Below are positions 7,483 through 18,802 of a stretch of DNA of 32,062 nt, one piece after another. The translations under genes were made by a program, and so were the position numbers. The stretch spans positions 1 through 32,062 of the IMG/VR virus record IMGVR_UViG_3300031749_000456; one strand, 5' to 3'. Positions within the stretch are counted from its first letter, which is position 1. Every line of letters starts with the position of its first letter. The notes beneath the pieces are model-generated. The model was not told the origin of the DNA and did not search any database. It saw only the letters and a list, made by a program, of their open reading frames with translations. This stretch comes from a virus.

Positions 7483-7537
7483 CATGGTGTCGGTCTGGAG
7501 GGGTTTTTACTGTGTAGTTCAACTCGAGGAGAAGCAA

Positions 7538-7819
7538 ATGAAGCAAAGCGAATTGATCGATGCGATTGCCTCGCATCACGGCAATACCGGAACCAGCAAG
7601 ACAAGCATCAGGTGGGCACTGGAAGCACTTGCCGAAGTCGCTCACAAGGAGCTCAAGAATGGTGGCGAACTCGCCCTCCCCGGGATCGGCAAGCTTTCCG
7701 TGGCGCATCGCCCAGCCCGTACCGGCCGCAACCCGGCAACGGGAGAAGCAATCCAGATCGAGGCCAGGCGGGTGCCGAAATTCGCGGCAGCCAAGGCCCT
7801 GAAGGACGCAGTAGCGTAA
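7538..7819 (+). CDS. HU-family DNA-binding protein
   Basis: This 93-residue protein has the full HU/IHF layout: two N-terminal helices, the GIGKLSV strand, a beta arm with the RTGRNPATGEAIQI signature containing the intercalating proline of the NP motif, and a C-terminal KFAAAKALKDAV helix. HU-type proteins bend DNA. Transposition by Mu needs host HU and IHF to build the transpososome, so a phage-borne copy may serve the same end; this is inference. The start at 7538 follows CGAGGAGAAG. Its strong ribosome site and the 55-base gap before it suggest high expression. Confidence 0.93.
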   Translation: MKQSELIDAIASHHGNTGTSKTSIRWALEALAEVAHKELKNGGELALPGIGKLSVAHRPARTGRNPATGEAIQIEARRVPKFAAAKALKDAVA

Positions 7820-8176: not shown

Positions 8177-8190
8177 ACCCTCGCCTGCAG

Positions 8191-8218
8191 CCCGTTACTT
8201 TTTCCGGAAAGTAGCGGG
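8191..8218 (+). other. 11-bp stem-loop between early genes
   Basis: CCCGTTACTTT (8191-8201) pairs with AAAGTAGCGGG (8208-8218) around a TTCCGG loop, with one G-T wobble. The core TTTCCGGAAA is itself a perfect palindrome. No T-run follows, so it is not a classic intrinsic terminator. It could be an RNA stabiliser, an attenuator or a protein-binding site. Confidence 0.45.
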
Positions 8219-8250
8219 TTGTGGAGGACGGTTTAACGGAGCGCAGAATC

Positions 8251-8496: not shown

Positions 8497-8906
8497 AATC
8501 CACTGCCACCGACATCCGCAAGAGCGAACTCGCCCAGATCCATGTGGCAAAGAAAGATCTCGGTCTCGATGACGAAACATACAGGGCCATGCTCTGGGCC
8601 GTCGCCCGGGTGAAGTCGGCCGCGGATCTCGACTGGGAAGGGAGAAAGCGCGTAATAGATCACCTGAAGGCCAAGGGATGGAGGAATGCTTCGAGGCGTC
8701 GAGCAACTCCTCCGGGGAACAAAAGCGCCCTCGTCGGAAAGATCCGGGCACTCCTCATCAACCATCCAGAAGGTCGCAAAGAAGACGCCTACGCTGATGG
8801 CATTGCAAAGCGCATGTTCAATGTCGACAAGTACACCTGGTGCGACGAGGAGCAGCTCTACAGGATCGCTCAGGCCCTTTCCGTAAGCGCCAGGAGAACA
8901 AGGTGA
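8493..8906 (+). CDS. gemA: GemA-like regulatory protein (DUF1018)
   Basis: This 137-residue protein starts at a GTG overlapping the upstream stop. It shows the GemA/DUF1018 hallmarks: an N-terminal IHVAKKDLGLDDETYRAML segment, a short helix with a conserved tryptophan (DLDWEGRKRVIDHLKAKGW), a basic linker, and a second helical domain with AYADGIAKRMF and a WCDEEQLYRI end. In Mu, GemA alters expression of host genes and DNA supercoiling. Its position immediately before the Mor-type gene is the usual one. The end overlaps the next start (TGATG). Confidence 0.92.
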   Translation: MKSTATDIRKSELAQIHVAKKDLGLDDETYRAMLWAVARVKSAADLDWEGRKRVIDHLKAKGWRNASRRRATPPGNKSALVGKIRALLINHPEGRKEDAYADGIAKRMFNVDKYTWCDEEQLYRIAQALSVSARRTR

Positions 8907-9292
8907 TGGTAGAGATCGACGTCGACGATCTACCTGGCATCCTGCGGGACCTGGTCGACCTGATCGGCCTGGCCGGGACGATGAAGCTGGTCGAGCATTA
9001 CGGCGGCGTCAGGCTTTATGTGCCTGTGAAGTACGACCCTGGGCACCCGATCGCGAAGCTCCTGGGGGGTGAATCCTTCCTGAAGCTGATAGATGCCTAC
9101 GGCGGCGAAGAGCATTTCGATATTCCGAAGGCTGATCGCGCCATGATTGCGCTGCGGAATCGGAGGATTCGGGAGGATTACAGTGTAATGAGCCAGCGTC
9201 AACTGGCGCTGAAGTACGGCCTCACCGAGCGCCAGATCCGGAACATCGTAGCCGGAATCGAGGTCGAGGACGGGCAGGAGAGTCTGTTTTGA
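8906..9292 (+). CDS. mor: Mor-family transcription activator
   Basis: This 128-residue protein is of the Mor/C family, which activates the middle or late promoters of Mu-like phages by binding an imperfect dyad next to a weak -10 box. The N-terminal half (IDVDDLPGILRDLVDLIGLAG) fits the dimerisation domain, followed by the LYVP strand. The C-terminal half has the helix-turn-helix YSVMSQRQLALKYGLTERQ. The start could be ATG 8906 or the adjacent GTG 8903; CAGGAG at 8891-8896 suits either. No separate C gene is seen, so this one probably drives the late genes directly. That is an inference. Confidence 0.92.
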   Translation: MVEIDVDDLPGILRDLVDLIGLAGTMKLVEHYGGVRLYVPVKYDPGHPIAKLLGGESFLKLIDAYGGEEHFDIPKADRAMIALRNRRIREDYSVMSQRQLALKYGLTERQIRNIVAGIEVEDGQESLF

Positions 9293-10710: not shown

Positions 10711-10796
10711 CATTTCCCCGGAAGCCTTTCCGCCTTAGTTCCGCTCCCTCTTTTCAGTAACCTGATCGTGTCAGCAATCTGTTTGCACAAAAGCCA

Positions 10797-10831: not shown

Positions 10832-11311
10832 ATGGGCTTCGATCAGGCATTCCAGGATCTCATGGGCAATGAAGGCGGCTATGTGGACAACCCGAGCGAC
10901 CCCGGGGGTGCGACTCGCTACGGCATCACCGAGCGGGTTGCGCGCAAGCGCGGCTACACTGGCGACATGCGGGACTTCCCGATCGATCTCGCCCGGCAAA
11001 TCGCGAAGGCGGAATACTGGGACCCGTGCCATTGCGACGCTCTGCCGGAAGAGGTCGCCTTTCAGGTATTCGATGCCTACTACAATGGCGGCCACGCGGC
11101 GATGTGGTTGCAGGAAGCGGCCGGCGTCCCGGCGGACGGCTTGATCGGCCCCGCCACAATCGCGGCCGTGAATGCCGCGAACCCCGACAAGATCGTTATG
11201 CGCTTCGATGCGCTGCGCCTTAAATACCTCGGCTCTCTTTCGACGTGGCCCGCATTCGGGCATGGCTGGGCGAATCGGATTGCGGACAACTTGGCCAGGG
11301 CTGCTCGGTGA
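10832..11311 (+). CDS. endolysin, GH108 N-acetylmuramidase
   Basis: This 159-residue enzyme cuts the glycan strands of peptidoglycan at the end of the lytic cycle. The GH108 signature is at the N-terminus: NEGGYVDNPSDPGG with catalytic glutamate E14, followed by TRYGIT. The C-terminal half matches the usual peptidoglycan-binding domain, with FDAYYNGG and a DGLIGPATIAAVN repeat. There is no signal peptide, so it would depend on the holin. The start at 10832 has AAAGGAGAGG in front. It is the first gene of the late operon and overlaps the next one (TGATG). Confidence 0.95.
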   Translation: MGFDQAFQDLMGNEGGYVDNPSDPGGATRYGITERVARKRGYTGDMRDFPIDLARQIAKAEYWDPCHCDALPEEVAFQVFDAYYNGGHAAMWLQEAAGVPADGLIGPATIAAVNAANPDKIVMRFDALRLKYLGSLSTWPAFGHGWANRIADNLARAAR

Positions 11312-14675: not shown

Positions 14676-16138
14676 TGGAGAGCGATAAACAGGTTCGCCC
14701 AGATCTGGGCGAGATTGCAACGACCCTCGACGGCAGGGACATCACCCGCGGCTACCTCGGCCCGCTGCTGATTCCTCAGGATCGGGTGCTGCTGTCCGTG
14801 GGCGGCAACCTGATGTTCTACGAGGAGGTGCTGACCGACGACCAGGTGATGTCCACCTTTCAACAGCGGCAGTTGGCGCTGATATCTGTGCCCTGGGAAG
14901 TGACCCCGGGCGGACCATCTCGCCAGGACAAGAAAGCGGCCGACTTCCTGTCGGCCCAGCTGGAGAGCATTGGGTTCGACAACCTCACCAAGAAAATGCT
15001 CTACGGCATGTTTTACGGGTATAGCGTGGGCGAGTGTTTGTATGCCAGGGACGGATCTCAGGTGGTGCTCGATGGCCTCAAGGTCAGGAAAAGCCGGCGT
15101 TTCCGCTTCGCCCCGGACGAGTCTCTCAGATTGCTGACCATGCAGAATATGTGGGACGGCGAAGTGCTGCCCCCCAGGAAATTCTGGACTTACCAGTGCG
15201 GCGCCGACAACGACGACGAGCCCTATGGCCTCGGCCTCGCCCACTGGCTGTACTGGCCGGTATTTTTCAAGAAAAACGGAGTCACGCTCTGGCTCAAGTA
15301 CCTCGACAAGTTCGCCCAGCCGACGACTGTGGGCAAATATCCGCGAGGCACATCCCAGCCCGAGATCAACACCCTGCTGCAGGCGCTGCAGGCGATCAAC
15401 ACCGACACGGGCATCGCTGTCCCGACCGGCGTTACTTTGGAGCTCCTGGAGGCAGCCAGATCCGGCACCGGCGACTATGCGACGATCTACGACCGAATGA
15501 ATCAGGCGATCGCCAAGATCGTGCTCGGCCAGATGATGACCTCGGAAGCGGTCGGAGGGCACAACAAAGCGGACGTGCAGATGCAGGTACGGCAGGATCT
15601 GGTCAGGGCTGACGGCGACATGATCTGCAGCAGCTTCATGCGAGGTCCAGGAAAATGGCTCACCGAATGGAATTTCCCAGGGGCCAAAACTCCCAGGCTG
15701 CGGCGCATCGTCGAAGACCCAGAGGATCTGAAAGCGCGCGCGGAGCGAGACGCAAGTCTTTACAGCATGGGCTACAGGCCAAAGCTCAGGTACGTCCAGG
15801 ACACCTACGGCGGGGAGTGGGAGGATGTGGGGGCGCCCAAGCCGAACGCCCCGCAGGCGCCGACACCCGACAATCCAGCCTTCGCGGAAGGCGATGTCGA
15901 TGACGAAATAGACGCGCTGGAGAAGGAGATGCTGTCGGACTGGGAGAAAGTCACCTCCCCCGTCATGCAGCCCATCGTCGATTTGGCTGCCGAATGCGAA
16001 AGCTTCGAGGCGTTCCAGGAGGCACTTCCGTCGCTTCTGGGCAAAATGGATGTGGCAAAGCTCGTCGAGCAGCTCGCCCAGGGATCGTTCGCCGCGAATT
16101 TATGGGGCAGGCTGAACCCGGGATACGGAGGTGAGTGA
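14675..16138 (+). CDS. portal protein, DUF935 (Mu gp29-like)
   Basis: This 487-residue protein is of the DUF935 portal family: the dodecameric ring at the head vertex that docks the terminase and later the tail. Supporting motifs are ITRGYLGPLL near the N-terminus, VPWEVTPGG, the FYGYSVGECLY stretch and the LARYF-free core ending with GGHNKADVQ. The C-terminal 100 residues are acidic and proline-rich with a helical end. Order and overlap with the terminase and with the F-type gene (eight bases) are exactly as in Mu-like phages. Confidence 0.94.
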   Translation: MESDKQVRPDLGEIATTLDGRDITRGYLGPLLIPQDRVLLSVGGNLMFYEEVLTDDQVMSTFQQRQLALISVPWEVTPGGPSRQDKKAADFLSAQLESIGFDNLTKKMLYGMFYGYSVGECLYARDGSQVVLDGLKVRKSRRFRFAPDESLRLLTMQNMWDGEVLPPRKFWTYQCGADNDDEPYGLGLAHWLYWPVFFKKNGVTLWLKYLDKFAQPTTVGKYPRGTSQPEINTLLQALQAINTDTGIAVPTGVTLELLEAARSGTGDYATIYDRMNQAIAKIVLGQMMTSEAVGGHNKADVQMQVRQDLVRADGDMICSSFMRGPGKWLTEWNFPGAKTPRLRRIVEDPEDLKARAERDASLYSMGYRPKLRYVQDTYGGEWEDVGAPKPNAPQAPTPDNPAFAEGDVDDEIDALEKEMLSDWEKVTSPVMQPIVDLAAECESFEAFQEALPSLLGKMDVAKLVEQLAQGSFAANLWGRLNPGYGGE

Positions 16139-17306
16139 CATCGTTCTGCAGCCGCTTCCCCCTAAAGAGGCAATCGCTTTCTTCAGGCAAAAGGGCTTCA
16201 AAATCGGGTTCAATCACCAGGATGTTTGGCAAGAGGAGCACCAGGCGGCTTTTACGGTGGCCAAGGCAATGAGCGTGGACGTTCTCAAGGCCATTCGCTC
16301 CGCCGTCGACGACGCGCTCGCCAATGGCACGACGTTCCGCGACTTCCGCAAGAACCTGAAGCCGGTGCTGCAGCAGAAGGGATGGTGGGGGCAGTCCGAG
16401 ATGATCGATCCGCTCGATGGTCAGAAAAAACAGGTGCAGCTTGGCAGCACCAGGCGGCTGGAGCTGATCTACGACACCAATCTGCGCACCTCCTACAGCG
16501 AGGGCAAGTGGCAGAGAATCCAGGCGAACAAGGGCGCTTTTCCTTATCTCATGTATTCCGGGGGGCATTCGGCGCATCCGAGGCCGCTCCACCTTGCCTG
16601 GAATGGGCTGGTTCTGCCTGCGGACGATCCGTTCTGGCAGGCGCATTACCCCGTGAAGGCGTGGCGGTGCAAATGCTACGTCATCCAGATGAACAGCCGC
16701 ATGCTGGCGCGACAGGGGCTCTCGGTCGGATCGGCGCCAAAGGTCGAGTCCTACACCTACATCAACAAGCGAACCGGTGAGGTCCAGAAGATCCCGGCAG
16801 GGGTCGACCCGGCATTTCATTACGCACCTGGCGGACGTCAGGGTGCGCTCAACTCCTACCTGGCGTCGACGCTGGATAGCGCAGATCGTCCGCTGGCCGC
16901 AGCTGCCGTATCCGACCTCGTCAAAAGCGCTGCATTCAAAAGCTTCTACGAGAAGCCGGAAGGGGCGTTCCCCGTCGCGGTGCTTGCGGCAGCGGATGCC
17001 AAGGCGCTCGGCGCGGGCACCAATACGGTCCGGCTGTCTGATGCGACCATGCAGAAGCAGATCGAGGTCCATCCCGAAATCACCTGGGATGAATATGGCG
17101 GCGTGCAGGAAGCCATCGATAAGGGCGAGCTCATCCAGGATTCCGATAACACTGCGATCTATCTATGGGAGGACGGGGGGTACGTGACCGTGGTGAAGGC
17201 CACCAAAAGCGGGAAGGCGCTTTACATGACGAGCTTCCGCAGGCTCTCTCGAGACGAAGTGAAACGGGATGAGGAGGTGAAGCGTCTCCTGAAGAAAAAG
17301 CAGTAA
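16131..17306 (+). CDS. F: F-type minor head protein fused to a PBECR-like nuclease domain
   Basis: This 391-residue protein has two parts. Residues 1-190 are the SPP1 gp7/Mu F head morphogenesis domain, with YDTNLRTSYSEGKW at 114-127, the GHSAHPRPLHLAWNG segment at 145-159 and CKCYV at 180-184. Residues about 275-380 look like the phage Barnase-EndoU-ColicinE5/D-RelE-like (PBECR) nuclease fold: L-S-D with S303, HPE with H314, VVKATKSG with K356, and TSFRR with S368 and R370. Such domains may be injected with the DNA and act on RNA in the host; this is inference. The GTG start at 16131 sits directly on GGAG with no proper spacer, so translation may depend on coupling to the portal gene. Confidence 0.9.
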   Translation: MSDIVLQPLPPKEAIAFFRQKGFKIGFNHQDVWQEEHQAAFTVAKAMSVDVLKAIRSAVDDALANGTTFRDFRKNLKPVLQQKGWWGQSEMIDPLDGQKKQVQLGSTRRLELIYDTNLRTSYSEGKWQRIQANKGAFPYLMYSGGHSAHPRPLHLAWNGLVLPADDPFWQAHYPVKAWRCKCYVIQMNSRMLARQGLSVGSAPKVESYTYINKRTGEVQKIPAGVDPAFHYAPGGRQGALNSYLASTLDSADRPLAAAAVSDLVKSAAFKSFYEKPEGAFPVAVLAAADAKALGAGTNTVRLSDATMQKQIEVHPEITWDEYGGVQEAIDKGELIQDSDNTAIYLWEDGGYVTVVKATKSGKALYMTSFRRLSRDEVKRDEEVKRLLKKKQ

Positions 17307-17716
17307 CGGGCGGTGGGGCCCCCCAGTCCGCTTTCGCGGCAACCCCACATGGCGCTCCAGTCTTTCGACTGTGCTACGGCCGGGGGAATATCACCGTGTC
17401 ACGCCCGTGTTTGAAGTATGCGCCCTGGTGCGAATTTATGCAAACGCCGTATAATGCGCCAGAGCGATTATTTTGCCCGCGCCGCTACCTTCACCTGTCG
17501 CGGGAAATTCTCCCCCGTTAACCCCCCGTTAAATTCAGCCAGAAAGACATTCGCACCTTGGTGCGCTCCCCCTGGATTTCATCCCGGGGTTTCTTTGCGC
17601 GAAAAGTTGGGGTAGAGTAAAAAACATCTGCCGGGAAGTTCTTCCCGGAAGCGCTTCCTCCTTAACCCGTCCCGCACCAGGCTTCACAATGCGTCTCATC
17701 ACATCGAGGAGATGCA
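17307..17716. other. 410-base gene-free gap with many inverted repeats
   Basis: No credible gene lies here. Structures seen: GTGGGG (17313-17318) with CCCCAC (17343-17348) enclosing CCGC-TTTC-GCGG (17328-17339); CAGTC-TTTC-GACTG (17358-17371); CCCGCG (17476-17481) with CGCGGG (17499-17504); CGCACC-TT-GGTGCG (17552-17565); and CCGGGAAG-TT-CTTCCCGG (17631-17648), overlapping the palindrome at 17647-17658. GGTGCGAAT (17427-17435) is also complementary to ATTCGCACC (17549-17557), an alternative long-range pairing. CCCCCGTTAA occurs twice, 11 bp apart (17512 and 17523). TATAAT stands at 17450-17455 without a good -35. In Mu the G gene occupies this place. A late promoter, a structured RNA or a DNA site for head assembly are all possible. 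Confidence 0.6.
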
Positions 17717-18802
17717 GTGAAATCTATCCAGATTTTCAAGCCAGGCAAGCACACGGCCATGAGTGGCTCGACGCTCGCATTCAGCGAGAGCGATCTTCAG
17801 GCCACTGCTGCCGCCTACGATCCCGCGAAGCATGAAGCGCCGATCGTGATCGGCCACCCCCAGGCCGATGCGCCCGCTTACGGGTGGGTCAAGGACCTGA
17901 AATTCGCGGATGGTCTGTGCGCCTCCCCGGATCAAGTCGACCCGCAGTTCGCCGAGATGGTCCGGGCGGGAAAGTTCAAGAAGGTCTCGGCCAGCTTCTA
18001 CACCCCGGATTCCCCGTCCAATCCCGTGCCCGGCGTCTACTACCTCAGGCATGTAGGATTTCTCGGCGCGCAGCCCCCCGCGGTCAAGGGTCTGAGGTCG
18101 CCTGAGTTCGCCGATGCGGAGAAAGGCATCGTCGAATTCGGCGACTGGACCGATGTGCAGAACGCATCCCTGTGGCGCAGATTGCGGGAATGGATGATCG
18201 GCGAGAAGGGGCTTGATGTCGCGGACAACATCCTCCCCGATTACGCAGTTCAGTCGCTCGAGCAGAATGCCTTGCAGAGCGATCCAGACGACGAGGCGGA
18301 TTCACCCGCGCCTCAATTTTCAGAAACCAAAGGAGCTGGCATGACCGATGAAGAAAAGGTGCGCCTTGCGGCGCTTGAAGCTGAAAACGCAAAGCTGAAG
18401 AAACAGGCAGGCGAGCAGCAAAAAGCTGAGATTCACGCCGCGAATGCCGCGTTCGCAGAAAAACTCGTCCAGGAAGGCAAGCTGCTGCCCGTGCAGAAGA
18501 GCGTCTGCGTGGCCACGCTGGACTTTGCCGAAAGCTGCGAAACCGTTGTCGAGTTCGGAGAGGGCGACGAGAAAAAACCCCTCAAGGATGCGATTCGCGG
18601 GTTCCTGGAGTCGCTCCCCAACCAGGTGGAGTATGGCGAGCTGTCGAGAGACAAGGGCGCCGAGCGCACCGTCGAGTTTGCCGGCGCGCCTGGCTACACC
18701 ATCGATCCGGCAAAGCTCGACATACACGCCAAGGCGCTCGCCTACCAGGAGCACCACAAGGTGGATTACGTCACGGCAGTCAAAGCCGTCGGCGGCAACT
18801 AA
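17717..18802 (+). CDS. I: prohead protease with C-terminal scaffold (Mu I/Z-like)
   Basis: This 361-residue protein joins a maturation protease (about residues 1-130) to a scaffold. The protease part shows IVIGHP with H47, KVSASFY with S91, and RHVGFLGAQPPAVKGL at 111-126, the conserved motifs of Mu I-type proteases. The scaffold part from residue 209 is charged and helical (EEKVRLAALEAENAKLKKQ). In Mu, the protease cleaves the scaffold and itself during capsid maturation. The start is GTG 17717 with GAGGAGATG in front; the nearby ATG at 17712 is out of frame. A separate internal start for the scaffold is listed below. Confidence 0.92.
   Translation: MKSIQIFKPGKHTAMSGSTLAFSESDLQATAAAYDPAKHEAPIVIGHPQADAPAYGWVKDLKFADGLCASPDQVDPQFAEMVRAGKFKKVSASFYTPDSPSNPVPGVYYLRHVGFLGAQPPAVKGLRSPEFADAEKGIVEFGDWTDVQNASLWRRLREWMIGEKGLDVADNILPDYAVQSLEQNALQSDPDDEADSPAPQFSETKGAGMTDEEKVRLAALEAENAKLKKQAGEQQKAEIHAANAAFAEKLVQEGKLLPVQKSVCVATLDFAESCETVVEFGEGDEKKPLKDAIRGFLESLPNQVEYGELSRDKGAERTVEFAGAPGYTIDPAKLDIHAKALAYQEHHKVDYVTAVKAVGGN
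18328..18802 (+). CDS. Z: internal start producing the free scaffold (Mu Z-like)
   Basis: Within the protease gene, AAAGGAG at 18328-18334 lies six bases before an in-frame ATG at 18341. Translation from there would give a 153-residue protein, MTDEEKVRLAALE to the shared C-terminus. It is made only of the helical scaffold part without the protease. Mu makes its scaffold Z in the same way from inside gene I, so this reading has a direct precedent. The coding part is 18341-18802; the ribosome site is included in the coordinates. Confidence 0.8.

Follow-up and report, generated by a model that had tools for sequence, protein, structure and literature searches.

Introduction

In the transposable phage Mu, the G-I interval (17860-18055), situated directly upstream of gene I, carries an annotated gyrase cut site at 17879-17880, and the late promoter P_I is also located within this interval (PMC4461284). 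The Mor site in Mu Pm is centred at -43.5 (PMC4390567). In the T4 genes e, soc, 49 and I-TevI, longer transcripts fold a hairpin that conceals the translation start, and the late promoter is placed within the 5' strand of this hairpin (PMC3014915, PMC2988022). Here, we describe a locus whose individual parts have known counterparts in these two phages. It was found in a 32,062-base IMG/VR record, referred to below as the window, and corresponds to an intergenic gap of 410 bases (17307..17716, plus strand). From its sequence we think it reasonably probable that this gap serves a transposable (Mu-like) phage as its central intergenic control region, with a late promoter corresponding to P_I, a start-codon hairpin and a candidate gyrase site. 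A preliminary description of the window had proposed a late promoter, a structured RNA or a DNA site for the gap; as discussed further below, all three appear to be present, although as separate elements and mostly at other places than those originally assigned.

Position and synteny of the central gap

The gap exists as first described: it extends from the stop of an F-type minor head gene (16131-17306; phrog_220), which ends at 17306, to the GTG at 17717 of a Mu gene I-type head maturation protease (17717..18802, plus strand; phrog_976, E 4.5e-129). The window starts with a regulator and a transposase and ends in baseplate genes, so that both ends of the record are probably missing. It also encodes an HU-like DNA-binding protein (7484-7819; PF00216), as does RcWaterboi.

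By gene order, the gap is the positional counterpart of the Mu G-I gap. Every transposable phage fetched, from the hosts Chromohalobacter, Pasteurella, Rhodobacter, Rhizobium, Stenotrophomonas, Burkholderia and Pseudomonas, has a gap of ~150-290 bases before the protease gene, and the gap is therefore syntenic, with the 410 bases of the window at the long end of the range. A direct search for DNA similarity between the gap and phage records returned no match. Rfam searches at gathering and relaxed thresholds likewise identified nothing in the window, and nothing at E<=1 in the gap, while the same search of 18 relatives gave one match, outside the start region studied. An Rfam match to sRNA-Xcc1 (63.7 bits) was observed at 1652-1738 on the minus strand of a transposable-phage contig, L164. 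For the comparisons that follow, 114 non-redundant upstream regions were compiled from the protease loci of IMG/VR, genomes and named phages; the window is locus L114 among them, and 88 distinct leaders were used for the hairpin and -10 counts.

Folded as RNA, the gap has structure beyond chance (z = -2.4, with 1 of 100 shuffles as stable), and several inverted repeats are present, in keeping with the original account of a structured gap. This excess is moderate and uneven: the first 114 nt fold like shuffles (z -0.02), and the values for the middle, the 3' leader and the start-codon hairpin are z -1.9, -2.9 and -3.1, respectively. A single RNA spanning the whole gap was rejected because of the behaviour of those first 114 nt. 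We consider it very improbable that the gap forms one long structured RNA, either a leader or a small RNA, started at a TATAAT near 17461. The hexamer is indeed present (17450-17455) and the folding of the whole gap would suit such an RNA, yet no sigma-70 partner hexamer was found at -35 and the motif was not seen in relatives, which also led us to discard it as the promoter of the gap. Moreover, no Rfam match was obtained, most of the excess stability resides in the 3' leader, and the repeat in the middle of the gap can be found inverted among relatives. A competing long-range pairing of GGTGCGAAT with ATTCGCACC had also been proposed; both sequences exist, but the pairing is at about chance level (by our estimate, ~0.3 pairs forming a perfect 9-bp long-range inverted repeat are expected by chance in 410 nt) and no conserved counterpart was seen.

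A predicted late promoter upstream of the protease gene

In place of the transcript start suggested near 17461, a conserved promoter array was found at 17647-17698 on the plus strand, to which we refer as P_I. It is composed of a dyad, GGAAGCGCTTCC (GGAA-N4-TTCC; 17647..17658), predicted to be a Mor/C-type activator site and centred at about -44.5, followed by a -35-like TTAACC (17662..17667), a spacer of 17 bp and a -10 CACAAT (17685..17690), with the transcription start predicted at 17697/17698. A second late-promoter array on the same strand precedes the lysis genes (10720..10763; GGAAGCCTTTCC-gcc-TTAGTT-17-TAACCT), and the endolysin starts downstream of it, at 10832. Two copies of the dyad occur in the window and two to four in the relatives G002, G007, G008 and G010, while a reversed-pattern control detected none in the window. 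Among relatives, the combination of the GGAA-N4-TTCC dyad with a following CTTAAC is found again before gene I, and copies of the array precede endolysin, protease, tail or baseplate genes, as judged by eye from the first residues of the genes.

The geometry of these copies is strict. In all 12 copies, drawn from four records, exactly 17 bp separate the TTAAC-type hexamer from a -10-like hexamer (A2/T6), and an ATG follows the latter after 6-7 nt in 11 of the 12 extracted copies. A count made without using the dyad gave a corresponding result for the protease leaders: an A2/T6 hexamer ends 6-8 nt before the start codon in 47 of 88, compared with 5.7 (max 13) in shuffles, and the distances concentrate at 6 nt (25 leaders) and 7 nt (20 leaders), every other distance being represented by 0-5. 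A -10 at this distance predicts leaderless late mRNAs in those relatives. The window itself is not of this type, having instead a short leader with a Shine-Dalgarno GAGGAG (17706..17711, plus strand), part of which falls within the 3' arm of the hairpin considered below, and then GTG. Neither a close -10 nor a hairpin was found in 22 of the 88 leaders, which counts against the explanation that we regard as best.

As for the dyad, we also considered and rejected its action as an RNA hairpin; an activator site accounts better for a dyad that recurs at several late operons and keeps a fixed distance to the -35 and -10. The likely activator, as already suggested in the preliminary description, is the product of a Mor-family gene (8840..9292, plus strand; PF08765, E 6.6e-13), since this is the only Mor/C-family match in the window and the sole Mor-family match in the record; its binding is a prediction, and it would presumably act at the two late promoters alike. 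The window also contains a 14-bp stem, AGCCCGTTACTTTT-TCCG-GAAAGTAGCGGGTT (8189-8220), which directly precedes an ORF start at 8221 and is upstream of the GemA and Mor genes. A different motif, CTTTAAACCCGATTAAAAG, was observed at the late operons of another group of transposable phages, with four copies in each genome (5110, 11302, 17428 and 37668 in L024/PQ287647; also in G019 and G022), and is probably the late-regulon activator site of that group.

A hairpin at the protease start codon

The conserved RNA structure of the gap, which the preliminary description had not singled out, is a hairpin that touches the start codon (17690..17716, plus strand). It has the form TGCGTCTC-ATCACATCGAG-GAGATGCA, in which TGCGTCTC and GAGATGCA form the stem. 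A stem with a score of at least 14 that ends 0-2 nt before the start codon is found in 48 of the 88 leaders; shuffles gave 4.5, and the exchange of 5' arms between phages gave 14.6 (max 23). The signal peaks sharply and exactly at the start codon. It is also specific: such hairpins occur at only 5 of 229 other annotated starts and 2 of 24 F genes, and at none of five homologous proteases of other phages, cyanophages included.

Covariation was gauged by the exchange of arms and by counts of G-U and A-C pairs. All four Watson-Crick pairs as well as G-U are represented at 6 of 7 stem positions, and stems with one wobble contain 16 G-U against 3 A-C, a bias expected of RNA transcribed from the plus strand. 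This last observation bears on an alternative that we consider unlikely, in which the start-codon inverted repeat would function at the DNA level, either as a cruciform or as an operator around the -10, with P_I as described above. In its favour, the -10 of the leaderless class stands between the two arms, neither of which would be carried by RNA made from P_I. A DNA palindrome, however, is not expected to favour G-U over A-C, and in the short-leader class the repeat follows the -10 and covers the ribosome-binding site.

The hairpin, then, probably functions as RNA, and its placement relative to the promoter indicates in which RNA it would form. In 17 of 27 leaders of the short-leader class, to which the window belongs, the -10 reaches into the 5' arm or borders directly on it, so that RNA started at P_I would lack most of this arm; in the window, transcription is predicted to start where the 5' arm ends. 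The leaderless class has both arms upstream of its predicted start of transcription. The predicted opening of the window's Shine-Dalgarno sequence is 0.31 in read-through RNA and 0.71 in P_I RNA, and that of the last 15 leader bases in Mu increases similarly, from 0.25 to 0.57. Across relatives, predicted accessibility of the start is lower for proteases than for other starts (0.36 vs 0.42, p = 0.001), a modest difference that counts against the proposed mechanism. The folding estimates nonetheless agree in direction, and the hairpin most likely hides the protease start in read-through RNA.

A further promoter-like element, TTTCTT-17-TAGAGT-AAAAAA, lies at 17590..17625 (plus strand). The corresponding pattern, TTGC-17-TAGNNT-AAAAAA, is found ~90 nt upstream of the protease in 17 of 114 loci (for example L077, L117, L122, L184 and L186), compared with 3.2 (max 9) in shuffles, and its -35 TTGC emerges at exactly 17 bp; RNA from this element would include the blocking hairpin. 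A further putative hairpin, CCGGGAA-GTTC-TTCCCGG (17631..17648, plus strand), is read as such from the window alone.

It is also conceivable, but more improbable still than action as DNA, that a phage protein binds the start-codon hairpin and thereby regulates protease translation, much as Com is described to bind Mu mom mRNA in translational control (PMC6483171). Its position at the start codon would suit such a function, whereas the absence of conservation in both loop and stem sequence, together with the occurrence of similar hairpins at unrelated late genes of the same phages, argues against recognition by a dedicated protein. In three loci (L063, L064 and L045), the hairpin loops read ATCACCTCC or similar and resemble the 3' end of 16S rRNA, which may be a coincidence.

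A phased repeat in the central gap

The tandem CCCCCGTTAA to which the preliminary description drew attention is present in two copies (17512 and 17523), far beyond chance, and forms the sole TTAA pair with a spacing of 10-12 bp in the 32 kb. We describe it as a phased 11-bp TTAAC direct repeat, TTTAACGGGGGGTTAACGGGGG, on the minus strand (17512..17536), where the window repeat reads TTAACGGGGGGTTAACGG, ~110 bp upstream of the GGAA-N4-TTCC dyad. Pairs of TTAA 10 or 11 bp apart number 50 in the 114 regions, where Markov shuffles give ~1.7; lesser peaks are found at 20-21 and 31 bp. Two kinds of pairs contribute: the 11-bp TTAAC repeat, which is far upstream of the gene, and the 10-bp CTTTAAACCCGATTAAAAG, which is near the gene in other phages. 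We therefore abandoned the notion that all phased TTAA pairs are one element, given that the near-gene pairs are separate and present in up to four copies per genome. The 11-bp TTAAC repeat is found between -300 and -110 in 27 of 114 gaps, as compared with 1.0 (max 4) in shuffles and 0-4 for other spacings. No record in which it was found has more than one copy.

The repeat occurs on the plus strand in L110 and others and in the window's orientation in RcWaterboi, L089 and L093, and its distance to P_I and to the gene varies; two orientations and an inconstant distance to the gene favour a DNA site over an RNA. The leading reading is that of a gyrase site, to which we assign, on the basis of sequence features, an about even chance, and which is weaker than the rest of the interpretation. 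In the window, the repeat is the maximum of 10.2-11.2-bp AT periodicity over 50 bp, and by the same measure the Mu gyrase-site arm, which served as the positive control and contains TTTTTAAACCGGTATTTAACGG, is in the top 0.04% of Mu. The repeat reaches only the top 3-5% in YPCBV-1 and RcWaterboi, which weakens the gyrase reading, and periodicity over 130 bp was set aside as evidence, being not decisive even for Mu. In complete relatives, the repeat is positioned at ~0.50-0.56 of genome length; the window itself is a fragment.

The phage Ab30 poses a difficulty for a gyrase site. Here, the repeat is near gene I, ~0.9 kb from an insertion-free 37 bp segment that others have proposed as the gyrase site (PMC5977238). 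The repeat is absent from that segment, which accordingly was not used as independent support. The Ab30 repeat stays beside gene I even though other genes, ~1 kb in all, separate it from G, which speaks for an alternative, an operator or curved-DNA element for transcription of the I operon; so does the YPCBV-1 group, in which the repeat is just upstream of a promoter-like TTGCCC-17-TTACAT (read by eye). We regard this alternative as possible, if somewhat doubtful: the repeat is found in both orientations, in single copy and at variable distances to P_I, and was not found at other late promoters.

Related arrangements were noted in other phages. In B3-like and enterobacterial phages (L006, L019, L027 and L029), a single TTTATAAA is located in the central gap, ~120-160 nt upstream of the protease, where the central gap of other phages has the phased repeat. 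The AT-rich Pasteurella phage AFS-2018a (L195) has helically phased TTAAA arrays at many places and not just in the central gap (e.g. 5070, 11453, 18936, 22241 and 25308). At the right end of YPCBV-1 (L192), an annotated diversity-generating retroelement, with Avd and a reverse transcriptase, was observed at 34205-35938.

Proposed mechanism and its implications

In the mechanism that we propose, a Mor/C-type dimer would bind GGAA-N4-TTCC at 17647-17658, RNA polymerase would use TTAACC-17-CACAAT, and transcription would begin at ~17697/8, at the end of the hairpin's 5' arm, the 3' arm of which overlaps the ribosome-binding site and touches the GTG. Read-through RNA from the upstream operon would fold the hairpin and conceal the protease start, whereas P_I-started RNA, without the 5' arm, would be translated from an exposed GAGGAG. 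The promoter would in this way turn on the head-protease gene late in infection. For many relatives, the array is shifted such that transcription is predicted to start on the ATG itself, yielding a leaderless late mRNA. The phased TTAAC repeat upstream of the dyad would serve as the central gyrase-wrapping site, as Mu has in the matching gap.

If this mechanism is correct, only messengers born at the late promoter would be translated, by an insulation device convergent with that of T4 gene e and present in Mu. Such a device would explain how read-through RNA could leave the head-protease gene silent, along with the lysis and tail genes of some relatives, without an added protein. Leaderless translation would then be a regular feature of late expression in part of the transposable-phage family. 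The phased repeat, by predicting the site from sequence in many genomes, would also make the generality of the Mu central gyrase site in transposable phages testable. Taken as a whole, the further proposal that transposable phages share a late regulon with promoters inside start-codon hairpins, often leaderless, together with a sequence-recognisable central gyrase site, is tentative, and we place it somewhat below an even chance. In the open-access literature, we did not find the start-codon hairpin or leaderless late promoters of transposable phages, nor a family-wide sequence signature for the central gyrase site, although earlier mention of any of these is possible.

Comparison with known systems

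With the T4 late leaders, the window shares a start-hiding hairpin in read-through RNA, with a late promoter in its 5' strand, as judged by sequence and prediction. The phage families are unrelated, and the window has a putative sigma-70 promoter with a predicted Mor/C-type activator instead of a T4 late promoter; its relatives, unlike the T4 leaders, are often predicted to be leaderless.

Mu provides the closer comparisons. The activator sites of Mu Pm and the window are both centred at ~-44, upstream of a -10, but the arms of the window dyad are separated by a 4 bp spacer as opposed to the 6 bp of the Mu Mor site, which counts against the correspondence; unlike Mu Pm, moreover, the window dyad is placed at late operons and is accompanied by a -35-like TTAAC. 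The Mu strong gyrase site (SGS) resembles the window repeat in its location in the matching gap, near mid-genome, and in AT tracts phased at approximately one helical turn. The SGS has T/A tracts, while the window has an 11-bp GC-rich TTAACGGGGG repeat of variable orientation, and the window site is a candidate.

The most extensive likeness is to Mu P_I itself. In both phages the promoter, predicted in the case of the window, is situated between the head genes and gene I, reads toward I and has an activator site upstream of a non-consensus -35, and the presence of array copies at several late operons resembles the layout of the Mu late promoters. The window differs in the sequence of its activator site, GGAA-N4-TTCC, in its recognisable TTAAC at -35, and in the single Mor-family gene found, where Mu has the pair Mor and C; leaderless forms, as predicted for the window's relatives, also set these phages apart from Mu P_I. 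Mu P_I nevertheless has a hairpin of its own, CTGCTCA..TGAGCAG, the 5' arm of which ends at the mapped transcription start: a published oligonucleotide with 20 nt beyond the S1-nuclease-mapped start places that start at the junction of the CTGCTCA arm and the loop. Because its P_I start is already mapped, Mu is the immediate test case for the arrangement predicted in the window.
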